DNA from: Saprospiraceae bacterium
GTDB taxonomy: Bacteria; Bacteroidota; Bacteroidia; Chitinophagales; Saprospiraceae
Reading direction: 5' to 3'
Assembly (NCBI GenBank): GCA_021739645.1
Contig: JAIPBL010000012.1
Coordinates: 30,353 to 94,352, forward strand
Length of the DNA stretch: 64,000 nt
Shown: piece by piece, positions 11,386 through 64,000 of the stretch
How positions within the stretch are numbered: position 1 is the first letter of the stretch
How the letters are laid out: each line of letters opens with the position of its first letter
The notes under the pieces: generated by a model
Database searches by the model: none
The model's input: the letters and a program-made list of their open reading frames with translations, nothing else
Told to the model about the DNA's origin: nothing
Position numbers and translations under genes: made by a program

Positions 11386-11430
11386 GGGGGCGAATGTATT
11401 GAATTTTTGCAATACCCAATGCCACAAACA

Positions 11431-11470
11431 AAAAAAAAACGCCCTGTAAACATCACGTTTACAGGGCGTT
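11431..11470 (-). terminator. Rho-independent terminator of ssrA
   Basis: A near-perfect hairpin with 14-bp arms (AACGCCCTGTAAAC and its complement) around a 5-nt loop. On the minus strand it is followed by a run of nine T. It lies just past the tmRNA 3' end. An A/T tract on the other side could let it work in both directions. Confidence 0.85.
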
Positions 11471-11482
11471 ACAATTTTTTTT

Positions 11483-11875: not shown

Positions 11876-11950
11876 AATGTTTTCTTGAAAATCAAACGAC
11901 TTCCAAGTCTATCCATTTTTGTGACCCAACTTTTCAGGTCAAATGGATGG

Positions 11951-11958
11951 CAAAAGTA
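11951..11958 (-). promoter_or_regulatory. Possible -7 box for ssrA
   Basis: TACTTTTG on the minus strand matches the Bacteroidota -7 consensus TAnnTTTG. It would start a transcript about 70 nt upstream of the mature tmRNA 5' end, leaving a leader for RNase P to remove. I did not find a convincing TTG -33 box, so this is tentative. Confidence 0.35.
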
Positions 11959-12091
11959 TAAACTTCCAGCACAGCTAAAAAGTTTCATGCTGAAACACAT
12001 GAATGACGGGAACAAACGCATCGTGTTGCATTGAGCATCCAGGATAGTCAGGTCCAAATGGGCAGGATGTTAGTAGGTATTTATGGTTCTT

Positions 12092-12193
12092 TTAAATCTG
12101 CTTGTCAGAGCTTTCCACTTGATATTTGGTCTGACTGTTGAGGAGGGTAATGAAAAGCGCGGCAATAACGACAGTGATACAAAGGATTGTCAT
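12092..12193 (-). CDS. Possible 33-residue membrane peptide
   Basis: ATG at 12193 opens a 33-residue frame, MTILCITVVIAALFITLLNS followed by a short polar tail. The first 19 residues form a clean hydrophobic helix. A purine-rich GAGAGA lies just upstream. It sits alone between ssrA and the divergent dehydrogenase gene. No homology can be judged at this length, so it may be chance. Confidence 0.3.
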   Translation of the reverse strand: MTILCITVVIAALFITLLNSQTKYQVESSDKQI

Positions 12194-12508
12194 GTTCTCT
12201 CAATTTAGTAAGTTGAATGGTAAATGTAACGCAGTTGGGAGGTACATGCTATAAGGGGAAAGCATTGCAAAAATAAGGGTTTATACTGAACGTATCAATA
12301 CTGATTAAAAGAAAATTAGAATTGTTTTTCCATATTTATTATTCTCATGTTTAAGCGCCTATCATTGAGAGTTTAATGCCCAATTTTTCACTTTCCCACT
12401 TTTTACAAAAAAATATAATCTGTAGGTACGGAATTTGCAAATGCTGTGCGATTGAACAAATGGCTACCTTTGGCGCTCATTTCCGAATTAACAGAATCAA
12501 ACAGAAAA

Positions 12509-42000: not shown

Positions 42001-45000
42001 TTTGCACCGGGTGCCAAGGACGGTATAAATAGGGTAGGTCCTGCCCCAAAATTTACCCAACCAGGATTTTGCGCAGCACTAAAAGTCATGTTGGTAGGCA
42101 GGTAATCTATTACGAGTATGTTGGTGGCAGTCAATTGGCCTTGGTTGAAAACCGTGATGGTAAATGCCACATCCACGTTGGGCTGTACAGACATGGATTG
42201 GCCCGATGCCAATGTTTTCCGAAGGGCAAGGTCAAAAATAAATGGACTCTGTACCGTAAAACTCTTTGATTCCGTGCAGCCATAAGCATCAGTCACCGTT
42301 ACGACATACGTACCGGCGAAAAGGTCAAATAGGTCTTCCGTATCGTTGTCCGGCGTTTCGGGGCCATCGTTGCTCCAATCAAAAGTGTAGGGGGACGTGC
42401 CTCCGCTCACGGAGATGTCCACGTATCCATCGTTGGCTCCAATTGAATTCACATTGGAAACGAAGCCATCAATTTGAATCGCATCAGGTTGGCTTACCTG
42501 TGCGGTCAGCGAGTCAATGCAGCCAAAACTGTCTGTCACTGTGACCGTATATGAACCAGCGGGGACACCACTTAAATCTTGTGGGTCATTGTCGGGTACG
42601 TCTGCACCGTCGTTTGACCAGTCGTAGGTGAAAGGTGCGCCGCTTCCAGTCACCATCAGGTCAATGGAGCCGTCGGTAGATGAGTGGCAACTTGCGTCTG
42701 TCACGCTGCTGGACAGTGAAAGGTCGCAGGTTTGTTCATCAATATTGAAGCTAGCGGTTGCCGTGCATCCAGTGGCATTGGTTACCGTGACGGTGTATGA
42801 GCCGACCGCCAAACCAGTAATATCTTCCGGGTCATTGTCAGGTGTTTCGGGGCCATCGTTGGACCAGTCGTAGGTGTACGGAGCGCCAGGGCCGCTCACA
42901 GTTAGGTCAATTTCGCCATCGCTTCCGCCCGGTGTGCTTACGTTGGAAACTACGCCAGAAACCGTGATTTGCTCAAAAACAAGATTGACTGTCACGGTGG
43001 AATCGCAAAAATGTTGGTTGGTCAATACTTCTGTGCCAGTTGGGTTATTTTGGTTATAAACCACACCATTTACCGTCACCGAGTAGCCGTCGCCGGCGCA
43101 GCCTGTGTAAGTCTCGCTGCCGGTTGTCGCCGGGTGGAAAACCAAAGCCACCGTCACCGTCGAGTCGCAGCCGTTTTGGTTGGGCATCACTTCCGTGCCT
43201 GTTGGGTTGCCTTCGTCGTAAACCGTGCCGTTCACGGAAACCGAGTAGCCGTCGCCCTCGCATCCTGTGTAATTCTCGCTGCCGGTTGTCGCCGGGTGGA
43301 AAACCAAAGCCACCGTCACCGTCGAGTCGCAGCCGTTTTGGTTGGGCATCACTTCATTGCCTGTCGGGTTGCTTTCGTCGTAAACCGTGCCGTTCACGGA
43401 AACCGAGTAGCCGTCGCCCTCGCAGCCAGTGTAAGTCTCGCTGCCGGTTGTCGCCGGGTGGAAAACCAAACTCACCGTCACCGTCGAGTCGCAGCCGTTT
43501 TGGTTGGTCAATAGTTCAGTTCCAGTTGGGTTGCCTTCGTCGTAAACCGTGCCGTTCACGGAAACCGAGTAGCCATCGCCGGCGCAGCCTGTGTAAGTCT
43601 CGCTGCCAGTTGTCGCCGGGTGGAAAACCAAACTCACCGTCACCGTTGAGTCGCAGCCGTTTTGGTTGGGCATCAGTTCAGTTCCAGTTGGGTTGCCTTC
43701 GTCGTAAACCGTGCCGTTCACGGAAACCGAGTAGCCGTCGCCGGCGCAGCCTGTGTAAGTCTCGCTGCCGGTTGTCGCCGGGTGGAAAACCAAAGCCACC
43801 GTCACCGTCGAGTCGCAGCCGTTTTGGTTGGGCATCAGTTCAGTTCCAGTTGGGTTGCCTTCGTCGTAAACCGTGCCGTTCACGGAAACCGAGTAGCCGT
43901 CGCCCTCGCAGCCTGTGTATGTCTCGCTGCCGGTTGTTGCCGGGTGGAAAACCAAGTTCACCGTCACCGTCGAGTCGCAGCCGTTTTGGTTGGGCAATAG
44001 TTCAGTTCCAGTTGGGTTGCCTTCGTCGTAAACCGTGCCGTTCACGGAAACCGAGTAGCCGTCGCCCTCGCAGCCAGTGTAAGTCTCGCTGCCGGTTGTC
44101 GCCGGGTGGAAAACCAAACTCACCGTCACCGTCGAGTCGCAGCCGTTTTGGTTGGTCATCACTTCCGTGCCTGTTGGGTTGCCTTCGTCGTAAACCGTGC
44201 CGTTCACGGAAACCGAGTAGCCGTCGCCAAGGCAGCCAGCGTATGTCTCGCTGCCGGTTGTCGCCGGGTGGAAAACCAAGTTCACCGTCACCGTCGAGTC
44301 GCAGCCGTTTTGGTTGGGCATCACTTCCGTGCCTGTTGGGTTGCCTTCATCGTAAACCGTGCCGTTCACGGAAACCGAGTAGCCGTCGCCCTCGCAGCCT
44401 GTGTAAGTCTCGCTGCCGGTTGTCGCCGGGTGGAAAACCAAACTCACCGTCACCGTCGAGTCGCAGCCGTTTTGGTTGGGCATCACTTCCGTGCCTGTTG
44501 GGTTGCCTTCGTCGTAAACCGTGCCGTTCACGGAAACCGAGTAGCCGTCACCAAGGCAGCCAGCGTAATCTATTGGAGTAGTGGATTTAGGGTTTACTGT
44601 CAGCGTCAACTCGATAATGCTGTCGCAGTTATGGACTGTGGACAGGGTGTCGAAATACGTTCCGCCCATCGTTAGGTTCTGCGCATTGAAAGCAAAACTT
44701 TCACCTTCACAAATTGATTCAGAAATGGCCGTCAGTGCTTCGGGATAAATGGTAACGAGGGCCGTATCAGAAAAACCATTGGCAGCCGTAAAAATGACGG
44801 TATCCACTACTGCTGACGGATTAGAATTGGTGAAAACAATGGTCAAAACACTGTCGCCACTGGACGTTGGAGGGGTAGCGGTACTACCTGCCTGCACATT
44901 TACCAACCAAGTTCCAGGGATGGAATCGGAGGTAGTCAGGTTGTCTGGGTAAGCAATAATTATTGCAGCATCTCCGCTGCAAAGCACCAAGTCGTTACCG

Positions 45001-48071: not shown

Positions 48072-51000
48072 CTAGGGCAAATGCTCCCGCACAATGAAGT
48101 TGGCCAAGTAGGAGCTGTTTGTCGGATGACTCAACACGGTGTAGTACAACAGCGTGGCCCGTTCGTTCCCTGGGCCTTGGTAAATAGTCCTGCCATCGAG
48201 GTTCATATCGTTCCGGTCATAGCCCGAACTGATAAAGTTTGCAAGGTTTGAAGTGTTCAAAGGGTCAGCTACCACCCTGGAAAACAGGTAGAAAATATCA
48301 TTGCTTGGCCCCTGGTAGATGACTTTGCGGTCGCTATTGAAGTCGCCTGCCCACTGCATCCGCACACCGTTCACCACTTTCCCGGCCTCGTTCCAACCTT
48401 TGATGCCAAAGTTGGGGTCGGTAAAGTCCACAAGTGGTGGGGCGATTGAATTTAGCTGCACGGTAGCATCGGTCATTATGCCAGCATGGTTCCTGTGGCG
48501 GACAGCCACATAGTATTTACCCTCTTGCAGTTCAGGGAAAATGAGCAGATCGGAACCATCCGCAGTCACGACATCTCCGTCCCGCTGAATCAAGGCCGAC
48601 CTTGTGGCCAGCACCAAAGCACTGTTAGCGGAGTCCCGAACTTCGACAAAGACCCAATCCACTATGGCATCTGGGCCAGTAACAAGCAGGAGGGACGGCT
48701 GTACGGCTTCTCCCCCACCCTTTCCTTTGTGGTTGAAAGTAGTCAGTGCAGTGTATGGCTCTTGTGCGGGCACCATGCCCTTCGTGCGCAAATCATCCCG
48801 CATCAGGTTTCCGCCTCCGTTGCCGTAAAATGCTCCGTGCAATATCGTTTTCAATCGAAGAGCTGCGATGGTACAGGTGTCGTTTCTGTTGGCGATGGTG
48901 GTTTTGCCACAATCGTCAATTGCCATCCAAGTGCGGGTAGTCAACATGCCGGTTGCCTGCATTTCCTCCACCTCAGTTTGCCCAAAACTAAGCTGGTTGT
49001 CACAGTTGTCGTGTGCAAAAATATTCTGGTTAATCACGAGATTTGAGGCTTTTCCCTCACAATAATACCCTTTGTCAGCAGGTATGCTGCCCTCCAAAAT
49101 AAAGTAGGTGACCTGCTCTACCCCGTGGTTTCCATCTTGGTAAGTCCATTCTTGTAATCGAGCCTGAAAGCTGGTTGGCGTCACTGCTTTTACCCGAATG
49201 GTTACCGGGTCACCATCGTTCAAAGTGATGCCTCCCATGATTACGATAGGCTTGGTGTATCTGTGCTGCATCGGGAAGGAAGCCCAGGCATTGGTCAAGT
49301 TCAAAGTGCCGGTCTCGCCAATAAAATCACCATTCACATCGGTAATGTCCACACCTGACTTCAATGCAAGGTAGGCCAATGACTCAGTGCCATGGATGGT
49401 TTCACCGTCCTTCGACGATTCTTCATCAATGAACACTTGTGCACCACTGCTGGAAAGATTTTGAAAACGAGGCGTAGCGGCATCCACTTCATTGGTGGTT
49501 TGCTGCATGGCAATCAAGCCGGGCGCATTCGAAAAGGCCAAGGCAAAATTAATCGCAGTGGGAGAACTGGTTGCATTGGCAATCGAACCAGCCTCTAATG
49601 CAAAACTGGTGTTGAATGCCGTTCCCTTTTCCATGGCCGTCCAAGATACGGTTTCAGGCAGGTGTTTGCCATTGGAGGCTTCTTGCTCTGTAAGCCTAAG
49701 CTCAAAACCTTGTTTCGAGACGTTCCTGAGTTGCACAGTGGCAGCCTGGTTTTCCACCTCCGTGGTCAATTGGGTGAATACCACCGGAACACTGGCAAAA
49801 GTAATGGGGAACGAAACATATTTCCAGCGCTCAGAGGTGAGTGCTGCATTGCCTGAAACCAGTTTCTTGCCATTGGACAAGGTGTAAAGCCGTTGGATTT
49901 CAGGTGCTGTCAGGTCTTGTACGGTAATAACCTGCTTCCCAATAGTCATGTTGCCGCAAAGGTCAGTGGCCGTCCACGTCCTGGTAACATCGAAAGTTTC
50001 GCAGGCTCCTACTGCATGCGCAGTAGTTTCTTCTGAATATTCCATGTAGATGCCAGGACAGGCATCATAAGCCAAAACCTGGGTTGGCGCTGGCACTTCA
50101 TCATCGCAACTAATGGTTATGTCTGCTGGAAGGTTCAGCATAATCGGAGCCTGTGTATCGCCAAAATGGATATAAACGGTAGCCACGTCACAGCAACCAG
50201 AACTTTGATTGCAAACCTGGTAGATAAAGGAATCAGTGCCACAATTCTGACCGGAGGGCGTGTAGGTAAATTTGCCCGTACCATCAATGGTAACGCTACC
50301 AAATGAGGGCAATGAGGTGATACTGTAAGCCGGGTCTTGCAAGTTGCCATCGTTGTAAACTACCCGATCGGTGTACACGGTGCCAGGACAAGTGAAGTAG
50401 TTGTCGTCCACCAAATGCGGTGCTCCCACCAAGGTGCAATCAGGGTCGGCGCAGTCAATCAAGCCATCGCCATCATCGTCAATGCCGTTGGTACAATCCT
50501 CCGGGCAATTGACCACCACCACTTCAACAACCTTTGTTTCCGTGCAACCTACACTTGGGGTCACCGTCACGGTATAGTTCGTCGAAACGAGCGGCGTAAC
50601 GGTTTTCGTCCGACCAGTACCTAAGCCCTGGTCCCAAACATAGGTAAACACGCCGCTGCCTCCAGATGCCGATACGGTGAAACTAACGGGAGTGCCTGCA
50701 CAAATGGAGAAGTAAGAATCGGACTCCACCGTTATCCCGCAGGTCTGGTCGGCGCAATCCACCAACCCATCTCCATCATCATCAATTCCATTTGTACAAT
50801 TCTCTACACAGTTGGACACAGTGACTTTCACTTGGTCGGTAGCGACACAGCCGTTGCTGCCGGTTATGGTTACGGTATAGGTTTTAGTAGAAGTTGGTGA
50901 AACGGTTTTTACCGCACCGCTGCCCAACCCGTTGTCCCAGTCAAAACTATATGGGCCTACGCCGCCACTGCCTACTGCGGTAAGCGTCGCAATTTCTGTA

Positions 51001-52724
51001 TTGCAAATGAAGACATCAGCCCCTGCATTCACGCTCGGAGTCGGGTTCAAAAAGATGGCTACTTGGTCAGTGGTCGTACAACCGTTACCTGCGGTCACTG
51101 TGACGGTATAACTTGAGCTAGATGTTGGCGTGACCGTTTTTGAGGCACCAGTACCGAGCCCATTACTCCAGGTATAGTTAAATGGGCCTGGTGCGTTCGT
51201 TGCGAGTGCTGTAAGTGTTGCACTTGTGCCCCCACAAATGGCCACATCTGAGCCTGCATTCAGCGTGGCTGCAGGCTTAACTACCACCGTATATGCCGCC
51301 AACGGCGCACAGGTGGCAGGATATTGTGGTGCCGGTTTTACACAACCATATACATAATAGGTCGTGTTACTGGTTGTATTATTTGGAAAATTATTAGACG
51401 ACACGGTGCCCGTGCCATTTGTATTGGCATATTCCCCAAGCCATGTCTTTGCATCCGTTGATAAATATGGATTTGCTTGTAGCGCATCAAACCTGTAGTA
51501 TTCGATATAAGAGTATGGCGGGTTGGGCGCATTTGAAGTTGCGTTAAAAGTTACCGTTTCACCTTCACAAATTGTTCTGGCAACAGCATCATTGGGGGTT
51601 ATGGTTGGACAAAGGCAATCTTGGTCTTGGTTATCAACGAGGCCATCACCATCATCATCAATGTTATTGCCACATATTTCCACGGATTGTGGGCAATTAA
51701 TAGGGCCAGTCAAGTCCCATATTCTTCCGCCAAAATTAATGATATTACCATAAAAATAACCCGTCGTGCGGTTAATTTTTTGAATCATGCCACTGGACAA
51801 ACTTCCTGCCCATGTATTGCCATTTATATCAACGCCGATTTGCATTTCCGTTGGCAAATCATTTCTTATCAAAGTATATTGTGTAGTGTTCACATTATAC
51901 CGAAAGAAATAGCTGGTTCCCGCAGCAGCCATACCATATATAATGACATGCCCACCCTCAGCCGTGGCTATCATATCGCCCCAGGAAAGCTGGGTTGGAA
52001 TTGGCACATTCAAATTAACTGGCGCCCCTACACCGGACTTGCCATCCGCAGAAAGCTGCAAACGCCATATTTTTGACGAAGCGCCAGGATTCCCATTTTC
52101 AGTGCCGAGGTAAACATACCCGCCATAATACTCTCCCCCGCCGCTACTTAGGGATTCATTGCTGCCAATATACCCATTTAGGTCAAAAACTTGGCCGTGA
52201 GTCCCAGTGGCTGGCACCCAATAATAGACCTTTTTGTCCCTGCAATAATAGACGAGGTTCTTGTCTGCATTGGCTGCAAGGGCATTGAGGTTACCGGTAA
52301 CATAAGGGGAAGAAGTGGCAACGCTGCTGGAGCCGCCGGTGGCAAGGTTTACGCTCAAAATCTGGCCATTGTCCCTGGCTACCATCATCACGGTTTCCAA
52401 GCACCCACAATCGGGGTCGGCGCCATCAATGAAGCCGTCACCATCGTCGTCAATGCCGTTGGAGCAGTTCTCCGCCACCACCATTGGGGCCTCAAATTCG
52501 GCTGGTTGCGTGTTCGAAAAAGGTGAGGATAAGTGATACTTCCCGACAAATTTGATGCTTAACCGCTCCTTTAACAAGTCCATTTTTTGGGAGGCAAAGC
52601 TCAAAGGAGTGTGAGGCATTGGCTTCTCCATGGGGCTGTTTGCCATCGTCGGCAACAGCAGGATTGTCAACAGGAAAATGGATAGGACGCATACTTTTGG
52701 ATTTAGTGTTTGTGAAAGTCTCAT
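48072..52724 (-). CDS. Large secreted protein with lectin-like domains and GP-x-N loop C-terminus
   Basis: A 1550-residue protein from ATG 52724. After the signal peptide come a C-S-N-G-I-D-D-D-G-D-G motif (four copies overall), a propeller-like region (about 110-350), Ig/PKD-like units with GTGASKTVTP segments, a post-cadherin-like or Ig-like region with TCPGTVYTDRVVYNDGN, one HYR-like unit, and three H-type-lectin-like units (WKYVSFPITFASVPVVF and others). The C-terminal 270 residues comprise an MRDDLR segment, a VDWVFVEVRDS...VRHRNH domain, and a last module with two D-x-N-x-D-x-x-x-I-Y-Q-G-P loops. It has no T9SS type A or B domain that I can see. The same end is on the next gene and on the partial one. 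Confidence 0.9.
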   Translation of the reverse strand: MRLSQTLNPKVCVLSIFLLTILLLPTMANSPMEKPMPHTPLSFASQKMDLLKERLSIKFVGKYHLSSPFSNTQPAEFEAPMVVAENCSNGIDDDGDGFIDGADPDCGCLETVMMVARDNGQILSVNLATGGSSSVATSSPYVTGNLNALAANADKNLVYYCRDKKVYYWVPATGTHGQVFDLNGYIGSNESLSSGGGEYYGGYVYLGTENGNPGASSKIWRLQLSADGKSGVGAPVNLNVPIPTQLSWGDMIATAEGGHVIIYGMAAAGTSYFFRYNVNTTQYTLIRNDLPTEMQIGVDINGNTWAGSLSSGMIQKINRTTGYFYGNIINFGGRIWDLTGPINCPQSVEICGNNIDDDGDGLVDNQDQDCLCPTITPNDAVARTICEGETVTFNATSNAPNPPYSYIEYYRFDALQANPYLSTDAKTWLGEYANTNGTGTVSSNNFPNNTTSNTTYYVYGCVKPAPQYPATCAPLAAYTVVVKPAATLNAGSDVAICGGTSATLTALATNAPGPFNYTWSNGLGTGASKTVTPTSSSSYTVTVTAGNGCTTTDQVAIFLNPTPSVNAGADVFICNTEIATLTAVGSGGVGPYSFDWDNGLGSGAVKTVSPTSTKTYTVTITGSNGCVATDQVKVTVSNCVENCTNGIDDDGDGLVDCADQTCGITVESDSYFSICAGTPVSFTVSASGGSGVFTYVWDQGLGTGRTKTVTPLVSTNYTVTVTPSVGCTETKVVEVVVVNCPEDCTNGIDDDGDGLIDCADPDCTLVGAPHLVDDNYFTCPGTVYTDRVVYNDGNLQDPAYSITSLPSFGSVTIDGTGKFTYTPSGQNCGTDSFIYQVCNQSSGCCDVATVYIHFGDTQAPIMLNLPADITISCDDEVPAPTQVLAYDACPGIYMEYSEETTAHAVGACETFDVTRTWTATDLCGNMTIGKQVITVQDLTAPEIQRLYTLSNGKKLVSGNAALTSERWKYVSFPITFASVPVVFTQLTTEVENQAATVQLRNVSKQGFELRLTEQEASNGKHLPETVSWTAMEKGTAFNTSFALEAGSIANATSSPTAINFALAFSNAPGLIAMQQTTNEVDAATPRFQNLSSSGAQVFIDEESSKDGETIHGTESLAYLALKSGVDITDVNGDFIGETGTLNLTNAWASFPMQHRYTKPIVIMGGITLNDGDPVTIRVKAVTPTSFQARLQEWTYQDGNHGVEQVTYFILEGSIPADKGYYCEGKASNLVINQNIFAHDNCDNQLSFGQTEVEEMQATGMLTTRTWMAIDDCGKTTIANRNDTCTIAALRLKTILHGAFYGNGGGNLMRDDLRTKGMVPAQEPYTALTTFNHKGKGGGEAVQPSLLLVTGPDAIVDWVFVEVRDSANSALVLATRSALIQRDGDVVTADGSDLLIFPELQEGKYYVAVRHRNHAGIMTDATVQLNSIAPPLVDFTDPNFGIKGWNEAGKVVNGVRMQWAGDFNSDRKVIYQGPSNDIFYLFSRVVADPLNTSNLANFISSGYDRNDMNLDGRTIYQGPGNERATLLYYTVLSHPTNSSYLANFIVREHLP

Positions 52725-53245
52725 TTGCACACATGTGTTTAGTGTTTGTTGTTCCAAAAATCGATAAATATCGAAATCAGTGGGTCAAAAGTTCATTATA
52801 TACCTTTCATTATTGCGGATGCAACAACGAATAAATGAATCATTCAATTCCCAATAAAAAGCAAATAATGAGGTGTGGTGAGACTGTATTCGGAGAGGAA
52901 AGTAAACAAATGTAAATATAGCTGTTTTAGCGTAAAATTCTAATTATTATAGTTTTTATTTTTGATAATTTTTGTCACTGTTTTGAATTTATACTTCTCT
53001 ATACTCAACGTCATTCATACAGCGTAAATTAATTTCCTTGACTTTTATCTTTTCACGCCATGGTTGTTGTCATGGTTGTCGCCGCTTTTGGGAGGGCAGC
53101 GATGCCAAAAGCGGCGCCCAACCGTGACAACAACCATGACCTAAAAGGTCAAAAGTCAACAAATTTGGTGGCCAAGTTAGGGCGCAACTTCAAGTTGCAC
53201 CCTAACTATGCACTCGCCATTAATTCTAAATGCGCACATCTTTAA
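52725..53245. other. Spacer with two hairpin elements
   Basis: No gene. It holds the 53038-53159 inverted-repeat element and a 33-bp hairpin (53175-53207, AGTTAGGGCGCAACTT and partner) just past the 2599-residue gene, which might help end transcription. The rest, 52750-53030, is very AT-rich and should contain the promoter of the 1550-residue gene. Confidence 0.5.
53038..53159. repeat. 122-bp inverted-repeat element
   Basis: Ends TTGACTTTT and AAAAGTCAA. Inner arms, CATGGTTGTTGTCA and beyond, pair over more than 30 bp around a loop near GGGAGGGCAGCGATG. Preceded by the same GCGTAAAYTAA motif as seen at 47802. Confidence 0.7.
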
Positions 53246-56200
53246 TTATGGTATGAAATCCAACGCCATATAGTTGGCAATCATTGTAACATTATTTGGA
53301 TGTGAAAGTATCGAATAAAACAACAAGGAACTCCGGTCATTAAGGGGACCTTGGTAGATCGTTTTCCCGTCCATGTTAAAATCTTGCTGTACATATCCAG
53401 GCACAATAAAGTTGGCCAGGTTGTCCGAATTGTTCGCATCACCAACTACCCTGGAAAAGAGGTTGAACACATCATTGTATGGGCCTTGGTAGATGACCCT
53501 GCCATCCCCATTGTAATCGCCGCCCCAGAGGGTACGTTTTCCGTTGTTGATTTTGCCCGCACTGGCGCCGCCTTTGAGGTTTAAGCTTGTATCGTTAAAG
53601 TCAACCAATGGCGGACTGGCCAATGTCAGGTAAATTGGATCAAACGTGGTGACGCCCAAGTGGTTCCGATGCCGGACGGAAACGAAGTAGTCACCTTCCT
53701 CAATGGCAGGAAACACAATGACAGAGTCACCGTTCACGGACACAACCGAACCGTCACGTTTCAGCAGCACGGTGGCATAGCCCAATATATCGGCTTCGTT
53801 GGCAGCATTCCGCAGCTCCAAAAGCAGCCAGTCAACCACGGCCTCAGTACCCGATACTTGCAGCATCGTCGGACTCACCGTGCCTACATTGGCATTTACG
53901 GGTCCATCCGTGGCAGTGGTGCCGCCGCCGGTATTACCGCCGCCGCCCGTATTGCCACCTCCGCCAGTATTGCCGCCGCCAGTCTCAAATTCGTTAACCC
54001 CCATGCTACAGGAAGCTACCCAGTTGAAAATATTGGCACAATTCATCGTAGCTGGCAATGAAATGACAGGCACAGAAACCAGCCCTGACACACAATATTG
54101 CTCAACAGTTGCATTCCAAGTGCCCGAATTTAACAAGCCGCCATTTTCAATTAAAACGGAAAGTCCATTTCCATTAATGGTATTGCCAGCATCATTCTGG
54201 AAATTACCATTCACCACCCGGAACTTGCAGTTGGACACATACATGGAACCGTTTTTTTGGTTCTTAAAATTACCATTGACCGTTGCAGTTACGTTTATCA
54301 AGGTGTCCAAAACGCCAGCGAAGCCTCTTGAAAAATCAGTCCCGGCATTCACGCAGACGTTTTCCAATTTGCGCTTGCCACTTTCATGAGCAAACTCAAG
54401 CCCGGTTTTCACTTCACAGTTTTTCATATTTAGCTCACATGCGCCGCTCCACGTATAGAAATAGCCACTCACGTCAATAGAACTATTCGTGGCAAAAAGG
54501 GAGTTACCTTTCATTTTTATGTACCCGCTATTCAATTTTAGGCTGGCGTTGGTTATCCAAACTTTGGAGCCTGGTTTCAAATCCAAGTTGCCAGACAACA
54601 GTGTCACATGGTGCTCAATGCTGACAATGACGCTATTAATCCCATTAAGCGGAGGTATCAATCCGGTCTTCCAGGTGGCAGGACTGGTCCAGTTACCATC
54701 CGCAATGGTGCGGTAGGTGGCAGTAGCTGCACCGGTCGGCACCGGAAGAGGCGGAGGAGGACAGTCGCCCACGACATCGCCGTGGTCCAAATGCACTTGT
54801 AGCTCGCTTTCGTCAATCGTCATAGTCGCCTGGTCTGGCAGCCCAGAATGGTGGCAAATCGTCACCTGTACGTTGTTGTTTTGAACATACGGATAGGCAG
54901 GCAGTGCTGAGTAAGGTTCTGCCGTCGGTACATAGTTCAATTCACGCAGGTCGTCACGCATGGTATTGCCACCGCCATTCTGAAGCATAGCACCGTACAA
55001 CATGGACTTTACCTTGAGCGCAGCTACCTGACAGGTATCATTTCGGTTAATGACCGAGGTGTTGCCACAATCGTCGATGGCTGTCCAGGTCTGGTTGCGC
55101 ACAAGGCCGGTTGCCCCCTGCACGGACGACTCATTAAAGTTGAAAATAACCAAGTCGTCACAGTTGTCCAATGCAAAAACGTTGACATTGGCCTTCAAGC
55201 TTTCCCCATTGCCCCCGCAATAGAATTTGGCATTCGCAGGCACACTGCCCTCAACCACCATCCAGGAAACCATTTCAGGCGCATGGTTGCCGTCTTCGTA
55301 CTGCCACTCCTGTAGCCGTACCTCAAATTTATTGCTGGTCAGGTTCCGTACCCGCAGGGTCACCGGTTGGCCCTCGTTGATGGTTATGCCACCAACGATG
55401 ACTACTGGCTTGGTATATTTTCTGGCCAAATTGACCGTCGCCCAGGCATTGGTGACCTGCAACTGGCCAGCCTCCCCAAACACCTGGTCTTCATTGTCCA
55501 CCAACGGCGAATTTTGCTTGATGGCCAGGTAGGCCACCGTTTCGCCCAAGCGGGCCACTTCCGCATCCGCCGATTGTTCTTCTTGCCCAAAGACTTCAAC
55601 GCCGGTTCCCGTCAGGTTGAGGTGACGAAGGGTAGCCGGGTCAGATTGTTTGTTCGAAATAGAATTCGTGAAAAGCAATGGCGCTGCTGAATAAACTTGA
55701 GAGAAGTTGATTTGATCCGCTGTTTCATCAACATTGGCCAAAGAACCTGCCTCCCATTTCAAATTGCCGTTCTGTACATCTGCATCCATCGCTATCCAGG
55801 AAACACTTTCGAGGCCATGCTTGGCATCCAGCGCCTCCTCTTCCCGGAGTCGCACCTCGAATCCCTGCATTGATAGGTTGCGTATTTGCGTAGCTACTGG
55901 TGTAGCATCAGCATTGGTAGCGATGTTGGCAAAAAGCACGGGAGCCACCCTGAAGGTGATTGGAAACTTAACATATTTCCAGTCGTGGGTAACCCGTTGT
56001 GCAAGGCCTGCCACCAGTTTGGCCCCACCTTCCAGCGTGTATACCTGGAAAATCTCTGGTTTTATCTGGTCCAGCACCGTGATGACCTGGTCATCGGTTG
56101 CGGCGTTGCCGCAAAAATCGGTGGCCGTCCAGGTCCGGGTAATCGTGTAGGAGCCACATTCGCCGATATATGTCTGGTTAGAGGTTTCCTCGTAGTCCAT

Positions 56201-59200
56201 GTAAATGCCGGGGCACTGGTCAAAAGCCGTGACCACCGATGCCGGAGGCACCGCATCATCGCAGCTGATCGTCAGGTCAGCTGGCACGTTGGTCAGCACG
56301 GGCAGGGTGTTGTCGCCCAAGGTCATTGTCACTACCGCTGTTTGGCAACAACCCGAGGGTTGGTTACAAACCTGGTAGGTGAAATAGTCCGTCTGACACA
56401 GGAACGAGTTGGGGATATAGGTAAACTTGCCCGTCCAGTCAATGGTGACCGTGCCGTATTGCGGCGGTACCACGATTGAAAACAACGGGTTGTTGATGTT
56501 TCCGTCGTTGTAGGTTACCCGGTTGGAGTAGGTCATGCCCGGGCACGTCGTATAGCTGTCATCTACCAGCACTGGTGCCGTAACGCCAGAGCAATCAGGG
56601 TCAGCACAGTCTATCAGTCCGTCGCCGTCGTCGTCAATGCCGTTTGTGCAGTCTTCGCCGCAAAGCATTATCACCACCGCAATCTGGTCAACACTGGTAC
56701 AGCCCGAGGCCGATGTCACCGTGACCGTGTAGGTGGTGTTGACCAGTGGCGTCACTGTTTTTGTCGCCCCGTTGCCGAGACCGTTCGACCATGCGTAGTT
56801 GAACGGCGCACTGCCCCCCGTTACGCCCACGCTGAGGAGGGCCGGGGTGCCGGGACAGATGGTAATATCCGAGCCAGCATTAGCCGAAGGGCCACAATCT
56901 GAATCGGCACAGTCCACCAGGCCATCGCCATCGTCATCGAGGCCGTTGTTGCAGATTTCGGCGCACGGCGCCACGGTCACCGTTTTTTGGGCGGTGCTGA
57001 AACAGCCGTTGGAGCTGGACACCGTCACGGTGTAGGTCGTGGTAGCGCCCGGCGTTACCGATTGCGAAGCACCGGAGATGCCGTTGCTCCAAACATAGGT
57101 ATAGGGCGAAGGCGCACCAGAGCCAGTAGCCGCCAATGTGGTCGAACTACCGGTACAGATGGAAATATTTGCGCCAGCATTCGCTGTTGGTACGGCGTTT
57201 ATCGAGACCATGACCTGGTCGGTGGCGGTGCAGCCACCTGCATTCGTCACGGTGACGGTGTAAGTTGTGGCACTCGTTGGAGAAACGACCTTTGAAGCAC
57301 CGCTGCCAAGGCCATTTGACCAGTTGTAGGTGGTGCCGCCCGTGGCGGTCAAGGTCGTTGAAAGCCCTCCGCAAATGGTTATATCAGCGCCTGCGTTCGC
57401 CGCAACTGAGCCAATGGTCAGATAAGCGGCAGTAGAATTTACGCTCTCACAACCGTTGCCAGCGGCGCTGACGACAACGCGGTAGTAGCCATTGGTAGTC
57501 AACGCTGGTGTCGTGTAGCTGCTGGATGTGGCCCCATTGATGTCGGACCATTGACCATTGCCATTGCTATTGTATTGCCATTGATAAGTAAGGCTTGGGG
57601 TACCACCCGTTGCTGTCACGCTCAGGGTCGTCGTTCCGCCAGTACAAAAGGTAGCACTCACAGGTTGGGAAGTAATGGTGGGATCTGGTGTTACAGTCAC
57701 CAGTACCTGATTAGTGGCCGTACAGCCATTGGTGCTGGTCACTGTCACCGTGTAGGTGGTTGTGCCAGCAGGAGTTACCGTTTTAGAAGCGCCACTGCCA
57801 AGGCTGTTGCTCCAGGCGTAGGTGTACGGACTGACGCCTCCCGTTGCACTTGCTGTAAGCGATGTGCTACCACCGACGCAGAGTGTTGAAATAGTTGCGC
57901 TGACACTAGCTGCCAGGCCGAGGCTGCAATCGGAGTCAGCACAATCAGCAAGGCCGTCACCGTCGTCGTCAATGCCGTTGTTGCAAATTTCTGTATTGGT
58001 CTTGAACCCAAAAATATGGTCACAATCAGCCGTGCCGGACGCTGTAAAAGAAGCCGTGGCAGTGGCAGGTGTTGTCAATTGAGTAAAAGGCGGTAGCGTA
58101 TTGGCCTCAAGCCTCACTACATATTTTTCCGTGTTGTTCAACGTATAGTTGATGACCAACCTCGGTGCCTGGGTGCTGTTGTTATTGGTTTCATAAGATT
58201 TTGCTTCCACGTTGTTTGAACCTGTGGAAATCAGAATAAAGGCCATTTTGCCATTCGAGTAGGCACCATAGGTGTTCACCAATTCTTGCACGACATTTTT
58301 GATGTCTGCGGATTGGTACTCGTTATCTGATGTCCACCCCCCTACTGTCCAAGCTGTTTTTGCCGTGGTACGGGTTCTACTGGTAACGTTGGAATTCGAG
58401 CAAAAGGTTGAAGGGCTGGAGGTCTTATTGGCATATACATCCACACTGCCGGAGTTGCTTTGATTCGCCTTAGCAACAAAATAAAGGTATGCATTCGTAA
58501 TAGTAGCCCCAGCCGGAATTGTTATTCCCGTAAAGCGAAGGCCAATATCCTTGTCCTTTCCAAATTGGATTTTGTTTTCGCTGTTATTGCCATCCCTTCC
58601 ATCGTTACATCCAGTATTTATCCTATCATCATAAGTTGCAACGAAACTAGGGTTGACGGTGAAAGCGTATTTCCCAGAACTGTCAGATACTTTGGTGTCC
58701 AATTGTGTGTCGCCAGCATCAACTGCACCGTTTGAGTTGACATCCTTGAACAAGGTAAGGGTCACACCTGATTGGATGCTTTCGCCATTGTCGTAAACCT
58801 GGTTACTGTTGGAATCTTCAAATACTGCTCCGGTAATATTGTTTTGCCCAGTGGAATTGCCACAATTCCCAATATTAAAGCAATCAACATCTGCGTAATC
58901 TATAAACCCGTCACCATCGTCGTCCAGCCCATTCGTACAGATTTCAAAATTTGGGCAGTTTAGGACATCTATTTCCGCTACAGATGTCCAAGGATTTCCG
59001 GAAGCTTCGGAAGTTGCCCTTAAGCGTATGTACCGTGCAGAAGTAACCGTAAATTGTACTTCTTTCGCACTGTAATTTGAATACGTCCAAAGGCCAGACA
59101 CCAAAGGAGTACCCCAATTCACACCATCTTGACTGAGGTAAAACTCAAAATTTGCGATTCGGCCATTCACACCGGATTGACGAGGAAGACACCTAAATCC

Positions 59201-61045
59201 ACCGATATTTTTGGATGAGCCTAAATCTATCTGTATCTCATGGGGCAATGGGTCATTTCCGTTATTCCATTTCGAATGCCAAAAAGTGTTGGTATTCCCA
59301 TCGAAAGCGTTGGTAGCTGCACCATTTTCACCAACCGTTTCCTGGCTGTCAACATATTTAAGCACCCAATCTGTTTTTGGGAGTGCAACCAAACTTCCAC
59401 AACAATCTGGATCGTTGGCATCTATCAAGCCGTCACCATCATCGTCAATACCATTATTGCATATCTCATGGTCAGGGGGAAGAATTGTAATTTGAATAGG
59501 CTTGAAACTAGTTCGAAATCCACAACCATCGCTCACAATCAATTGAATTGTACAAGTTGTTGAAGTGCTAACAGTTGGTGCAGTAAAGCTTGAACTTGCA
59601 CTATTTGCATTGCTAAATATGCCACCGCAAGATGATGTCCATGTATAGGTATAACTCCCAGAACCACCCGTCGCAGCGGCGGAAAATAAGTAGGATTGAC
59701 CAGAATAGGCAACAGATGGAACAACCGTGACAGGTTTTATGGACTTGTCCTCTAACGCCATGAAACTGAAGTTAAAGAAAGTCCGTTGTGCTGCAATATT
59801 TGGTTCATTATTGCTTTTTGCAATGTCGTGCCCACCGGTGTAATCAATGTACCCCCTGCTGCTGTTTCCAAACGCATAGCCAAAGGCCAATTTTGCTGCA
59901 GGCCCATTCGATAGGGTACCCAAATCGCTTTGAGCAGGATCCCAAACTCCAACGATAGTACTTGGCCTCCAACCGACTGTTGGAAGATAAACCTGTTCTG
60001 CTCCACTTTCTTGACCACCATCCAATGAACCTAAAAACTGCATTATTGGGTGGTTATGATTTGAAGAATAGGAATAGGGCGGATTGCCATCGTCGTGGTT
60101 TCCTGATGGCACAGCTGGATTTGTCGCCGGTGCAATCGGATCTTGCATTAGAAAATTAAGGCGTTGAGATGGATTGCTAGGGTTAACTGAGTTTTCCATT
60201 TCACTGACTGCCTTACATCCAGCCCAAATTGCGCCCCTACACCCACCATTTGCCTCGCTGTCATTCCACGTCAACAAGTTGGAGTGGGTACTCCATGTTG
60301 GGTCAGCATGGGGCATTACAAATAAATCGTTGCAGCAATTCAGGTCACTAGGCAACACCCAATTATAGGCTGAACTTGGAATTCCAGCATTTTGCAAAAA
60401 ATCTTCGGCTATTGAGCCATTCTGTTGGTCAAGCGTCCAATGCATCGAATAGTTTAATTCCCTATCAACTGGAACGGTAATATCATAAGCAGTGGTGACT
60501 CCAACTACCCCAAGCGATTGCCAGTTTGCTATTTTTGCATTCACTTCTGCTGTACGATATTCTACTGAAATAATGAAAGGCCCGCCCCTGAAGTCGGTGC
60601 CATTATAAGTAAAATCAATGCCATCATTTGCCTTTGCAGGATTTATTGACCAGATTATAGGAACATGATGATTTTCGATTAAATCCCAAATTAGGCCATA
60701 AGGTTTTAAGGCGTTATCCACCGTTTGGGGTTGAACACCCATATTAATAATGAAGGAACCTGACGCTATCGTCTGGTATTCGACCATTGCGAATGGAGGA
60801 TTGTCACCATTAGCGTTTAAGCTTTCTGCCCCCATAAACGGCAAAGGGCCAACATCGGTGGATGTGGCCTTCCCCATCTTTTCAAAGACAGGTAGTTTTA
60901 GCGAAGAAAAAAGTGAATTTGGAAATGTTTCCTTGAATTCGGGTGGGCAATCGCTGTCGGGTCCATGACCAAGCATGGTGACAGGTAATAGGCAAACTAT
61001 GGATATAGTTCGCAGAACCCTTGATAGTGTTTGTGTTGGCCTCAT
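53246..61045 (-). CDS. Very large secreted protein: discoidin, DNRLRE-like, lectin-like domains
   Basis: A 2599-residue protein. Signal peptide, then an unrecognised N-terminal domain (about 30-430), Ig-like unit, F5/8 type C (discoidin) domain (about 550-690), SdrD B-like segment, DNRLRE-like domain (about 800-970), several Ig/PKD-like units (about 1018-1470), one HYR-like unit, H-type-lectin-like units (about 1660-1935), MRDDLR segment, a beta-helix-like insert absent from the 1550-residue paralogue (about 2050-2340), a GGGNT linker, a VDWLLLELRN...VRHRNH domain and two D-x-N-x-D-G-x-x-I-Y-Q-G-P loops at the end. Five C-x-N-G-(I/L)-D-D-D-G-D-G motifs separate the parts. Surface binding of glycans is inferred from the discoidin and lectin-like parts. 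No standard T9SS end is seen. Confidence 0.9.
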   Translation of the reverse strand: MRPTQTLSRVLRTISIVCLLPVTMLGHGPDSDCPPEFKETFPNSLFSSLKLPVFEKMGKATSTDVGPLPFMGAESLNANGDNPPFAMVEYQTIASGSFIINMGVQPQTVDNALKPYGLIWDLIENHHVPIIWSINPAKANDGIDFTYNGTDFRGGPFIISVEYRTAEVNAKIANWQSLGVVGVTTAYDITVPVDRELNYSMHWTLDQQNGSIAEDFLQNAGIPSSAYNWVLPSDLNCCNDLFVMPHADPTWSTHSNLLTWNDSEANGGCRGAIWAGCKAVSEMENSVNPSNPSQRLNFLMQDPIAPATNPAVPSGNHDDGNPPYSYSSNHNHPIMQFLGSLDGGQESGAEQVYLPTVGWRPSTIVGVWDPAQSDLGTLSNGPAAKLAFGYAFGNSSRGYIDYTGGHDIAKSNNEPNIAAQRTFFNFSFMALEDKSIKPVTVVPSVAYSGQSYLFSAAATGGSGSYTYTWTSSCGGIFSNANSASSSFTAPTVSTSTTCTIQLIVSDGCGFRTSFKPIQITILPPDHEICNNGIDDDGDGLIDANDPDCCGSLVALPKTDWVLKYVDSQETVGENGAATNAFDGNTNTFWHSKWNNGNDPLPHEIQIDLGSSKNIGGFRCLPRQSGVNGRIANFEFYLSQDGVNWGTPLVSGLWTYSNYSAKEVQFTVTSARYIRLRATSEASGNPWTSVAEIDVLNCPNFEICTNGLDDDGDGFIDYADVDCFNIGNCGNSTGQNNITGAVFEDSNSNQVYDNGESIQSGVTLTLFKDVNSNGAVDAGDTQLDTKVSDSSGKYAFTVNPSFVATYDDRINTGCNDGRDGNNSENKIQFGKDKDIGLRFTGITIPAGATITNAYLYFVAKANQSNSGSVDVYANKTSSPSTFCSNSNVTSRTRTTAKTAWTVGGWTSDNEYQSADIKNVVQELVNTYGAYSNGKMAFILISTGSNNVEAKSYETNNNSTQAPRLVINYTLNNTEKYVVRLEANTLPPFTQLTTPATATASFTASGTADCDHIFGFKTNTEICNNGIDDDGDGLADCADSDCSLGLAASVSATISTLCVGGSTSLTASATGGVSPYTYAWSNSLGSGASKTVTPAGTTTYTVTVTSTNGCTATNQVLVTVTPDPTITSQPVSATFCTGGTTTLSVTATGGTPSLTYQWQYNSNGNGQWSDINGATSSSYTTPALTTNGYYRVVVSAAGNGCESVNSTAAYLTIGSVAANAGADITICGGLSTTLTATGGTTYNWSNGLGSGASKVVSPTSATTYTVTVTNAGGCTATDQVMVSINAVPTANAGANISICTGSSTTLAATGSGAPSPYTYVWSNGISGASQSVTPGATTTYTVTVSSSNGCFSTAQKTVTVAPCAEICNNGLDDDGDGLVDCADSDCGPSANAGSDITICPGTPALLSVGVTGGSAPFNYAWSNGLGNGATKTVTPLVNTTYTVTVTSASGCTSVDQIAVVIMLCGEDCTNGIDDDGDGLIDCADPDCSGVTAPVLVDDSYTTCPGMTYSNRVTYNDGNINNPLFSIVVPPQYGTVTIDWTGKFTYIPNSFLCQTDYFTYQVCNQPSGCCQTAVVTMTLGDNTLPVLTNVPADLTISCDDAVPPASVVTAFDQCPGIYMDYEETSNQTYIGECGSYTITRTWTATDFCGNAATDDQVITVLDQIKPEIFQVYTLEGGAKLVAGLAQRVTHDWKYVKFPITFRVAPVLFANIATNADATPVATQIRNLSMQGFEVRLREEEALDAKHGLESVSWIAMDADVQNGNLKWEAGSLANVDETADQINFSQVYSAAPLLFTNSISNKQSDPATLRHLNLTGTGVEVFGQEEQSADAEVARLGETVAYLAIKQNSPLVDNEDQVFGEAGQLQVTNAWATVNLARKYTKPVVIVGGITINEGQPVTLRVRNLTSNKFEVRLQEWQYEDGNHAPEMVSWMVVEGSVPANAKFYCGGNGESLKANVNVFALDNCDDLVIFNFNESSVQGATGLVRNQTWTAIDDCGNTSVINRNDTCQVAALKVKSMLYGAMLQNGGGNTMRDDLRELNYVPTAEPYSALPAYPYVQNNNVQVTICHHSGLPDQATMTIDESELQVHLDHGDVVGDCPPPPLPVPTGAATATYRTIADGNWTSPATWKTGLIPPLNGINSVIVSIEHHVTLLSGNLDLKPGSKVWITNASLKLNSGYIKMKGNSLFATNSSIDVSGYFYTWSGACELNMKNCEVKTGLEFAHESGKRKLENVCVNAGTDFSRGFAGVLDTLINVTATVNGNFKNQKNGSMYVSNCKFRVVNGNFQNDAGNTINGNGLSVLIENGGLLNSGTWNATVEQYCVSGLVSVPVISLPATMNCANIFNWVASCSMGVNEFETGGGNTGGGGNTGGGGNTGGGTTATDGPVNANVGTVSPTMLQVSGTEAVVDWLLLELRNAANEADILGYATVLLKRDGSVVSVNGDSVIVFPAIEEGDYFVSVRHRNHLGVTTFDPIYLTLASPPLVDFNDTSLNLKGGASAGKINNGKRTLWGGDYNGDGRVIYQGPYNDVFNLFSRVVGDANNSDNLANFIVPGYVQQDFNMDGKTIYQGPLNDRSSLLFYSILSHPNNVTMIANYMALDFIP

Positions 61046-61345
61046 CTTAAGTGTATTTGTTTGTTCATTACATCATACTTGTATATGCTGACTTCTGTCA
61101 GTCACACCATTTAGCATGGAAAATCGAAAAATCTAATTTTTTGAAAAGGGAGAATTCGAGAGGGAAGTCTGCGAACCGTAAACCGGGCATATTCCATGCC
61201 AAAACTGCTTTTTATTCTGCTATCGAAAAAAATACTTGGATATTTATAGGTGTAATATTAAACGTACCATTGCTTCTGGGAACGCAGCCCAACACCAAAA
61301 CATCGGCTCATCTGTGAATTTTTTAGTCAAAAAATCTACTTGAGA

Positions 61346-61585
61346 ATGGTTAAAAAATAACTTCCCAAATTGTGGAGTAAGTTAGGGGTTGTGAAAAAAG
61401 TCCCATCGGGACTATATCTTTGTAGCATTGCCAAAGAATGTTCCGAACCGTTCCGTGGGAACGGCATCCTGGCAGAACAAATGCCGTTCCTACGGAACGG
61501 TAGACGAAATTACATTCGTCGGTTCTACAAAGATTCACCCCCTACGGGGCTTTTTACACAACCCCCTAATTTGAGCCTGATTGAA
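61346..61585. mobile_element. Near-palindromic element nested in a hairpin repeat
   Basis: The inner part, 61383-61569, has inverted ends TTAGGGGTTGTG and a second TTTGTAG arm. Its centre CCGTGGGAACGGCATCCTGG matches the pattern at 16910-16930 (CCGTNGGNACGGCATNCTGG). The outer flanks match 29612-29692. This reads as one repeat inserted into another. Confidence 0.75.
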
Positions 61586-61739
61586 GCTAGGAACTTATTC
61601 TTTCATCGTTCCTTAATTGCAGCAAAATCGTCTCATCGTGAGTGATTGTGAGAAATGCTCATTTCTCGTTTTCAGTCATTTACTGATGTAACGCTCTAAC
61701 TACTTTTAAACAACCGCTGAAAGTTGTTTGAAAGTCGTT

Positions 61740-62058
61740 GTACTCGTCTGGGCGGGTGGCCTGGCAGCGTAATGTTCGAGCATGAGATGGCTTGAGCCAT
61801 TTGGCTCAAAGGAATGAGGAAAAACGAGTTTACGCTGTCTTGAATTTTTGGTTCTTTTTTTCAAGAAAAAAGAACACCTCAGTAGGCATCAGAAGCTGTT
61901 ATTGATTGATAATCAACGTATTATCGACTACTGATATGAACTTTACACATCCCTGCCGGGGGCATTCTTTTTTTGCGAAAAAAGAATCAAAAACGCTTTC
62001 CAAAAAAACTCGCTCCGCTCAAACAGTTTTTTGGAGCGCCCCCCGCCCAGACGAGTAC
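61740..62058. mobile_element. Inverted-repeat element of about 320 bp
   Basis: Terminal arms GTACTCGTCTGGGCGGG (61740-61756) and its complement at the other end. Inside are hairpins GTTCTTTTTTTCAAG with its partner and ATTCTTTTTTTGCG with its partner. No coding sequence. Confidence 0.7.
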
Positions 62059-62115
62059 CCGCCAGAACTAACACACGAATAAGGATGAAAAGGCATTCTG
62101 CGTAACATTTGTCAT

Positions 62116-64000
62116 TTATTCTTTCATCGTTCCTAAATCAATATTTCTGTGGAGGATTTTCCAAAACCACGCATATTCATTGTCCGGCCCAGTCGGGATG
62201 ACAACGCCATCCAAGTTGAAGTCGTAAAACTCGTAGCAGTTGACCCTTCCTTTGCTTGGTATATTTAACTTTTCCACAAGGTGGAAAGCGGAGGACATGA
62301 TACCCGTATTATGCCCGAACCTGCCGTTTTCAAGCGTAAAGAACGCTGTGGTGAAAATGGTGTTTCCCATCTTAAATTTCAGTTTTTTGCTGACCACTGG
62401 TTCATGGTTTCTGTGACGGATGAGGAGGTGATATTTCTTCCCAGATAGCCCGACAAATGCCACCGGCGACTGGCCATCGAGTGCGGTGATGCTGCCGTTC
62501 CGCAGGAGCAGTGCAGGTCGGGAAAAAGCAGGGTTTGTATCCTTCAGGGATGCATATAGCTCCAGGCTGACCCAATCCACTACGGCCTTGCTTCCCGTTT
62601 TTTGGAAAACATCACCGTCAACTCGCTCGTGTTGGAAACTACCCTGACCGGGATATGGAGAAAAGCTGGGCAATAAGCCCTTGGCGCGCAAATCATCCCT
62701 CATCAAGGTGCCTTCACCTTCTGCTCCTTCTAACAGTATGCTCGTGGAAAGAAAGTAGGCACCCTCAGGCTGGGCCTTGGCCAGAAGGTTTCCCTCCCCC
62801 GGAGCGATAGAATCGCTAGCGATGACGTTGGAATATTCCCAGGGCAGGTGAGCGGCATTCTTAATTTTTCTTCTGTAATAGTTGTGCTTTTCAAAGCGGC
62901 TGGCAGGCAGGTCGGGGGCATTGGCACCGTAAAGCCCCGTCCAATCGCTTCCATTGTCGCTAAATTCCCACTGGTACATTACCCGCCGGGTCAGTATGCC
63001 TTTTGGGGGAACCTCTTCCACCAGTACCGATTTTTGACCGGATGCCGGTGAATGGCTCCTCGCCGCTATTACCCCCCCTCCTGTCAACGCCGGAATAACT
63101 TCTTTCACGACAGTGTTTGAATTTCCCCAGGTCGAGCCGCAGCAATTTGCATAGCCGGTGCATCCGACCGTTCTTGCACTCCTCCGATACCAGGTTGTCA
63201 GATTGATTAGGGGAGGGTCATAGGTGCTGGAATTGGCCCCCGGAATCAAATTCCATATATTATCGGTGGAACTGTACCAAATGTATTCAATGGGGTCACT
63301 ACTTCCTGAAGGGGCCGTGATACTGACAATGTTTGCAGGATCGTAAGCGCCGGTCATGGATTCATCGTAGCCGATGGTGCCGGCAGCCGTCAAGTTTTGG
63401 AGAACGATTTTGGAAACTGAGTTGGAGAAAAGGGAATCGGCACAAGAAAATGTACTTGCCTTTCGCCTGTAATAAGTGGTTTGGGAAATGGCGGAAGGCT
63501 GCAAGGTTTCCAGCGTATCTGCTGCGCCCATGTCCGCCCATGTACCTGAAATTGTGTCGGTAGTTTGCTGCCATCGGTATTGTAGAAAACTGCCCGCCCC
63601 ACTCGTCCCTGTTGAAACGGAAGCAATTGCAGCAGGGGTGTAAGTACCGCAATAAGATTCATCACCGGAAATGGCGCCGGAATCAGCAACAGTGCAATCG
63701 GAGTCGGCGCAATCTGCAAAACCATCCCCGTCGTCATCTAGACTGTTGTTGCATACTTCAGCACCACAGGCCCCTATCGTTACCGTCACCTGGTTGGTGC
63801 CCGTACACCCGTTGTTGTCGGTCACGGTCACCGTGTAGGTCGTCGTGGACGATGGCCCAACGGATTTGCTGTCACCGCTGCCCAAGCTATTGTCCCAGGC
63901 GTAGGAATATGGGCTTGCTCCGCTGGAGGCCGAGGCCGTCAGGATGGTGCTGGCCCCGTTACAGATGGAGACATCCGTGCCAGCATCGGCAGTAGGCACC
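62116..64000 (-). CDS. Secreted protein, N-terminus outside window, same C-terminal family
   Basis: The frame is open to the right edge, so the visible 627 residues are the C-terminal part only. From the visible start: Ig/PKD-like unit (DAGTDVSICNGAS), C-N-N-S-L-D-D-D-G-D-G motif, several Ig-like units with WYRRSARTVGC-type strands, MRDDLR segment, VVDWVSLELYAS...IRHRNH domain and a last module with one loop, D-x-N-L-D-G-V-V-I-P-T-G-P-D-N-E. The first of the two loops seen in its neighbours is missing or eroded. No T9SS type A or B end. It lies upstream of the 2599-residue gene on the same strand. Confidence 0.85.
   Translation of the reverse strand, partial: VPTADAGTDVSICNGASTILTASASSGASPYSYAWDNSLGSGDSKSVGPSSTTTYTVTVTDNNGCTGTNQVTVTIGACGAEVCNNSLDDDGDGFADCADSDCTVADSGAISGDESYCGTYTPAAIASVSTGTSGAGSFLQYRWQQTTDTISGTWADMGAADTLETLQPSAISQTTYYRRKASTFSCADSLFSNSVSKIVLQNLTAAGTIGYDESMTGAYDPANIVSITAPSGSSDPIEYIWYSSTDNIWNLIPGANSSTYDPPLINLTTWYRRSARTVGCTGYANCCGSTWGNSNTVVKEVIPALTGGGVIAARSHSPASGQKSVLVEEVPPKGILTRRVMYQWEFSDNGSDWTGLYGANAPDLPASRFEKHNYYRRKIKNAAHLPWEYSNVIASDSIAPGEGNLLAKAQPEGAYFLSTSILLEGAEGEGTLMRDDLRAKGLLPSFSPYPGQGSFQHERVDGDVFQKTGSKAVVDWVSLELYASLKDTNPAFSRPALLLRNGSITALDGQSPVAFVGLSGKKYHLLIRHRNHEPVVSKKLKFKMGNTIFTTAFFTLENGRFGHNTGIMSSAFHLVEKLNIPSKGRVNCYEFYDFNLDGVVIPTGPDNEYAWFWKILHRNIDLGTMKE

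Follow-up and report, generated by a model that had tools for sequence, protein, structure and literature searches.

The window analysed here, 64,000 nucleotides of contig JAIPBL010000012.1 from a Saprospiraceae bacterium, ends in genes for three large proteins, A, B and C, whose tails resemble one another and give no Pfam or NCBIfam match above the cut-off. How are these proteins held, and what is the shared tail for? An initial annotation, made from the letters alone, described a C-terminal module consisting of an MRDDLR segment, a VDW...RHRNH domain and one or two calcium-type loops, and proposed that it could be a new sorting or anchoring signal or a calcium-stabilised cap. From structure models and genome comparisons we consider it probable that the module is a predicted X-module-dockerin (XDoc) plug that binds, in a calcium-dependent manner, a predicted cohesin-fold domain encoded in the same genome, and that A, B and C are clipped onto cohesin proteins. 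It is likely that this clipping, rather than a new sorting signal, holds them on the cell surface.

A conserved C-terminal module with 16-residue loops

Searching the 64 kb in six frames for D.N.D(2-3)[IV](1-2)GP.N gave five matches, all within the tails of A, B and C, and the MRDDLR segments and VDW...RHRNH regions are all present there as annotated. The strict loop pattern, D-x-N-x-D-G-x-x-I-x-x-G-P-x-N-D, holds for both B loops, but the others deviate from it, with R for G in A loop 1 and a final E in A loop 2 and the C loop. The proposed common order of segments is found in A, while in B an insertion of ~325 residues separates the MRDDLR segment from the rest. A scan of 53861-54880, covering this insertion, against Pfam and NCBIfam gave no match at E 0.01. 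A large insert also splits the X-module part in the relatives L014, L015, L017, L018 and L024. The dockerin part of C has diverged: the module profile covers only positions 3-142 of 247, and the first loop appears degenerate by eye. The neighbouring gene product, reported to carry a type IX secretion system (T9SS) type B domain and to lack the module, indeed matches PF13585 (E 1e-25) and TIGR04131 (E 6.2e-16) at its C-terminal end and gives no match to the module profile.

The source genome (6.16 Mb, 147 contigs) contains 11 module copies, A, B and C included, which align over ~250 residues with VDW, H-R-x-H and the loop positions invariant. In an alignment of 99 copies P33, W67, G93, R121, H123, G170, Y212 and D216 are kept. 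Each loop has 16 residues, D1-x-N3-x-D5-G with an acidic residue at position 16; EF-hand and dockerin loops are four residues shorter. Positions 1/3/5 are D or N in 99/96/97 of the 99 modules for loop 2 and in 94/73/85 for loop 1, and position 16 is acidic in 99 and 95, respectively. These conserved acidic positions lead us to predict that the loops bind calcium. The relation of the module to dockerin and EF-hand loops shows in L010, a copy whose loops are 12 residues long. Pfam and NCBIfam place domains of the PKD, immunoglobulin-like (Ig-like), HYR, F5/8 and H-lectin types upstream of the module in A, B and C, and also short acidic disulfide repeats. In protein A, which has a signal-peptide-like start by eye, the domain scan places PKD/Ig-like repeats, Big_9 and an H-type lectin domain ahead of the module as C-terminus.

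The module is predicted to fold as a type II X-module-dockerin

The AlphaFold2 (AF2) model of the whole A module resembles a type II XDoc in structure comparison, with the best matches to 4u3s and 4wi0 (Acetivibrio ScaA). The model has an Ig-like X-module packed on a dockerin with two loop-helix motifs, and both calcium-type loops, with D/N at 1, 3 and 5 and an acidic last position, recur across the 99 modules. The resemblance to dockerins and EF-hands noticed in the loops was therefore right and extends to the entire module. The group to which it is likened is the type II XDoc of cellulosomal scaffoldins (PDB 2b59, 3kcp, 4fl4, 4u3s, 4wi0, 5m0y, 5g5d, 5k39). The loop insertion noted at the outset also has a solved precedent, since the type II dockerin of Acetivibrio ScaA is described, in the passage on its first loop, as having 'an unusual four residue insertion' (PMC5141474). 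In ScaA, however, the extended loop is a single exception, whereas 16 residues are the rule in both loops of the module. The module further differs from cellulosomal XDoc in having no sequence match to it, in the conserved MRDDLR segment ahead of the Ig-like part and in its place on adhesin-like giants of Bacteroidota and Thiothrix relatives.

Membership of the Pfam dockerin family was considered and rejected, while dockerin was kept as the fold. PF00404 (Dockerin_1) gave no row for A, B or C even at E 1, and L010, with its 12-residue loops, reached E 0.024 and missed the cut-off; we therefore call the module XDoc-like and not a PF00404 member. Sequence comparison with solved structures returned nothing for the module or for the partner domain described below (best E 0.46 and 1.3).

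Distribution of the module and the case for a sorting signal

The first module profile was built without the divergent C copy. Relatives were confirmed at 548 places in genome contigs, of which the best 80 (79 loci) were analysed, and 1615 were found among proteins, 120 of them listed. The C-terminal location stood up in 109 of the 113 stop-reaching frames, where the module ends at most 20 residues before the stop, frequently with [EQ]Q[LI]P at the very end, and leaves no space for a PF18962/PF13585 or IPTL-CTERM tail. It failed in the other four (L026-L029) and in one of the 11 source-genome copies (L003/L113), which are internal and followed by calcium-repeat-like segments. Three of the proteins with internal copies (L026, L027 and L113:114-10250) share a CGPC motif near the stop in place of a T9SS tail.

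This placement would suit a novel sorting signal at the C-terminus that T9SS or another outer-membrane exporter reads, with calcium loops that just keep the fold. Small proteins of a signal-peptide-like start plus module (L110:10205-11059, 11365-12282) fit such a signal too. The source genome is T9SS-positive (150 scored PF18962 matches and SprA), and the profile search that had been suggested for Bacteroidota found SprA in all 40 module carriers of an even sample of 296 genomes, against 227 of the 296 overall. The module may thus be linked to T9SS inside Bacteroidota. However, SprA is wholly lacking in only 5 of the 140 sampled genera, and being so nearly universal it gives the 40/40 association little weight. 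Of 63 genomes from the Thiothrix order, 27 carry the module; SprA was found in none of the 63, in a scan that had no positive of its own but used an SprA model positive in two other scans. In a single scan, SprA was found in 0/6 Thiothrix relatives (Thiothrix, Thiofilum and kin) versus 12/12 other module carriers.

Genomes without detectable T9SS and internal copies were the two observations that the initial annotation had named as telling against a sorting signal; both occur, and they weaken this reading. The size of the domain, 250 residues, its predicted fold, which is that of a known type of binding module, and the strong link to a cohesin-fold partner described below also weigh against it. 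We therefore regard a sorting signal as unlikely. Like the T9SS domains of type A (PF18962/TIGR04183) and type B (PF13585/TIGR04131), the module sits at the C-terminus of large proteins secreted by Bacteroidota. Those four models, however, gave no row for it, and it is about three times longer, has another predicted fold, occurs without SprA and is neither restricted to T9SS-positive genomes nor confined to the C-terminus.

A tree built from 99 modules puts all 12 rows of the Thiothrix group together (100/99), amid those from Bacteroidota; it is unrooted, so the direction of transfer between the two cannot be read from it. A Thermoanaerobaculia locus (L071) was set aside as a host: with a strong SprA match in its genome and a Bacteroidota copy as neighbour of its module in the tree, bin contamination is likely.

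A co-occurring domain with a predicted cohesin fold

A second domain of ~150 residues was spotted in the neighbourhoods of Thiothrix module copies; the proteins scanned gave no Pfam or NCBIfam match for it. A profile grown from one copy places it in 41 of the 79 module loci; 22 of these have both domains in a single frame. It was found in 46 of 50 genomes picked for having the module, in a survey that left out the five loci L084, L087, L088, L090 and L091. In the Thiothrix order it occurs in 25 of 27 module carriers versus 0 of 36 non-carriers; the two carriers lacking it have genomes of 2.6 and 2.1 Mb. Only two of the 296 sampled Bacteroidota genomes have it, the source genome and one other, both module carriers.

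AF2 models of Thiothrix copies, compared with solved structures (2jh2, 6kgd, 2vn5, 2xdh, 3fnk), predict a cohesin jelly-roll fold, and the source-genome copies belong to the same sequence family. The Pfam cohesin profile PF00963 misses the copies scanned (no row for five partner-domain proteins at E 10 or for four source-genome cohesin proteins at E 0.01), yet it matches elsewhere in the source genome. Co-occurrence and neighbourhood together suggest that module and cohesin-fold domain bind one another. Such binding would put on surface display adhesin-like proteins that carry lectin, F5/8, PKD and HYR-type domains.

Several points weaken the case for binding between the two. The co-occurrence statistics take no account of shared ancestry. 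Most lower-scoring relatives of the module in other Bacteroidota, 38 of the 40 carriers sampled, lack a partner from this family; Pfam-type cohesins occur in 27 of the 40, and 12 show neither kind. Finally, 23 of the 48 cohesin-only protein ends have no known tail. The carriers lacking the partner family, or both detected kinds of cohesin, would be accommodated if the module were a calcium-stabilised cap or a carbohydrate-binding domain that has no protein partner, the cohesin-fold domain being an unrelated adhesin domain of the same clusters. Proteins made of a signal peptide and the module would also suit a cap. Given the co-occurrence and neighbourhood described above, we think this quite unlikely and prefer binding of the XDoc-like module to a cohesin.

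For the lower-scoring relatives in other Bacteroidota, pairing with a second cohesin family, PF00963, is possible. PF00963 occurs in 98 of the 296 genomes and is enriched in module carriers (27/40 versus 71/256 non-carriers). Two PF00963 domains share one 787-residue frame with the module in one genome (G095, contig C14:226-2454), and in another a PF00963 cohesin lies ~2 kb from a module copy (G031, C12:256444-260444). As partner in the source genome PF00963 was rejected: none of the eight listed places of its 13 matches (contigs C129, C78, C9, C60, C11 and C35) shares a contig with the module. A Caldilineaceae protein, P0214, from another phylum, matches 26% of a Thiothrix cohesin-plus-module query (54% identity, E 1.7e-81); one or both of the domains may therefore be more widespread.

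Division of labour and a proposed assembly

The cohesin is N-terminal to the module in all 29 frames that carry both; in all 28 whose 5' end is complete, the first cohesin begins no more than 130 residues into the frame. The 48 cohesin-only ends, after omission of two of 50 for masked letters, carry a T9SS type A tail in 20 cases, type B in three and IPTL-CTERM in two (E 0.01). In the source genome there are nine module-only proteins (A, B, C and six others), two cohesin-plus-module proteins and nine cohesin-only proteins; five of these nine have a T9SS tail (Pfam) and one runs past the contig end. On its contig C80 (L110), two module-only proteins of ~300 residues, each a signal-peptide-like start and the module alone, are encoded ~2-4 kb from a protein of 1735 residues that has two cohesins and a type B tail. 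Further such small proteins occur at L033 and L040. The clusters of Thiothrix caldifontis (L070) and an uncultured relative (L062) contain a module protein, a cohesin-only protein, cohesin-plus-module proteins and a cohesin protein ending in IPTL-CTERM.

With clipping as the preferred explanation, giant secreted proteins like A, B and C would insert their XDoc ends into cohesin sockets, cohesin-plus-module proteins would serve as adaptors, and cohesin proteins with a sorting tail would fasten the assembly to the cell. Tail-less module proteins could cross the outer membrane bound to a T9SS-tailed cohesin protein. More speculatively, and as something we find possible but doubtful, proteins that have a cohesin at the N-terminus and an XDoc at the C-terminus could form head-to-tail chains, a non-covalent, calcium-locked, pilus-like fibre made with neither sortase nor chaperone-usher. 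Its base would be a cohesin protein with a T9SS tail in Bacteroidota or IPTL-CTERM in Thiothrix, its tips XDoc-only adhesins such as A, B and C, and the kit would have been exchanged between both groups and re-fitted to a different anchor. The assembly would seem to be structural or adhesive and not cellulolytic. No glycoside hydrolase accession was recognised among the Pfam domains of the 120 module proteins listed out of 1615.

A cysteine-rich tail (..CC...CVPF.V.K.. and variants), by eye not of T9SS type, recurs on cohesin-only proteins from Spirosoma and Runella (L036:9768-11840, L066:1494-2768, L077:1498-2772, L081:8843-10117, L084:12651-13925, L090:12523-14079). This tail is possibly another anchoring or sorting end.

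Relation to known systems

Cohesin/dockerin systems beyond cellulosomes are already known. Peer et al. reportedly reviewed non-cellulosomal cohesins and dockerins in 2009 and may mention Bacteroidota. According to the passages concerned in PMC8542988, the scaffoldin of Candidatus Stygibacter (Cloacimonadota) is a cohesin protein inferred to be surface-fixed by a conserved C-terminal domain, and the 'planctosome' is cited as another non-cellulosomal system. A surface-fixed cohesin protein with dockerins on other secreted proteins is what our system has in common with Stygibacter. The C-terminal domain there, sourced to Lasica et al. 2017, we take to be a T9SS domain. In our case Pfam misses both domains, the carriers are adhesin-like and IPTL-CTERM replaces the T9SS tail in Thiothrix, whereas the Stygibacter domains were detected by standard models and, in the same passages, the dockerins sit on hydrolases and peptidases (PMC8542988).

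Literature searches on cohesins and dockerins in Thiothrix, Saprospir-, Bacteroidota and adhesin contexts listed nothing describing the system. The pertinent passages of a 2025 cellulosome review do not mention Bacteroidetes or Bacteroidota (PMC12484212), and one Bacteroidetes paper states, in the part concerned, that cohesins and dockerins were not identified, in line with other Bacteroidetes genomes (PMC5831590). Given the frequency of PF00963 in our Bacteroidota sample, the gap lies in recognition and not in occurrence. As far as these searches reach, new features are two sequence families missed by standard models, an XDoc-type module outside cellulosomes, the adhesin-like cargo of this module, and its presence in both Bacteroidota and Thiothrix with differing anchors.

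Certain cellulosomal bonds are extremely force-resistant, as stated in the relevant part of PMC4266597, and a cohesin bond of that kind would suit adhesion under flow. If clipping is correct, it would give a place and purpose to many hypothetical proteins (1615 relatives) and a display route to proteins that lack a T9SS tail. It would also reveal a single scaffold kit, differently anchored, in Bacteroidota and Thiothrix. New natural module/cohesin pairs are also potentially useful in protein assembly.

Coordinates in the window

Features of the three module proteins and their neighbour (positions counted from the first letter of the window)
Feature	Position	Strand	Remarks
Protein A	48072..52757	-	1561 aa as listed
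A, X-module-like part	48345..48854	-	AF2 model residues 1-170; MRDDLR segment and VDW...RHRNH Ig-like domain
A, MRDDLR segment	48786-48803	-	inside X-module-like part
A, dockerin-like part	48075..48344	-	AF2 model residues 171-260; two loop-helix motifs
A, calcium-type loop 1	48297..48344	-	DFNSDRKVIYQGPSND, 16 residues
A, calcium-type loop 2	48162..48209	-	DMNLDGRTIYQGPGNE
Protein B	53246..61045	-	2599 aa; F5/8 type C, Ig_7 repeats, Big_9, C-terminal module
B, module piece one	54866..54970	-	profile positions 3-37; holds MRDDLR segment (54944-54961); separated by insertion
B, insertion within X-module part	53891..54865	-	~325 residues
B, remaining module	53249..53890	-	VDW...RHRNH; loops 53471-53518 and 53336-53383
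Protein C	62116..63999	-	627 aa; contig end cuts 5' end of gene; module at C-terminus
C, good loop	62176-62223	-	one loop
Neighbour	30036..47501	-	5821 aa; contrast case, T9SS type B domain at end

The neighbour also contains about ten near-identical repeats (TGSETYTGCEGDGYSVSVNGTVYDEGNPTGTE...).

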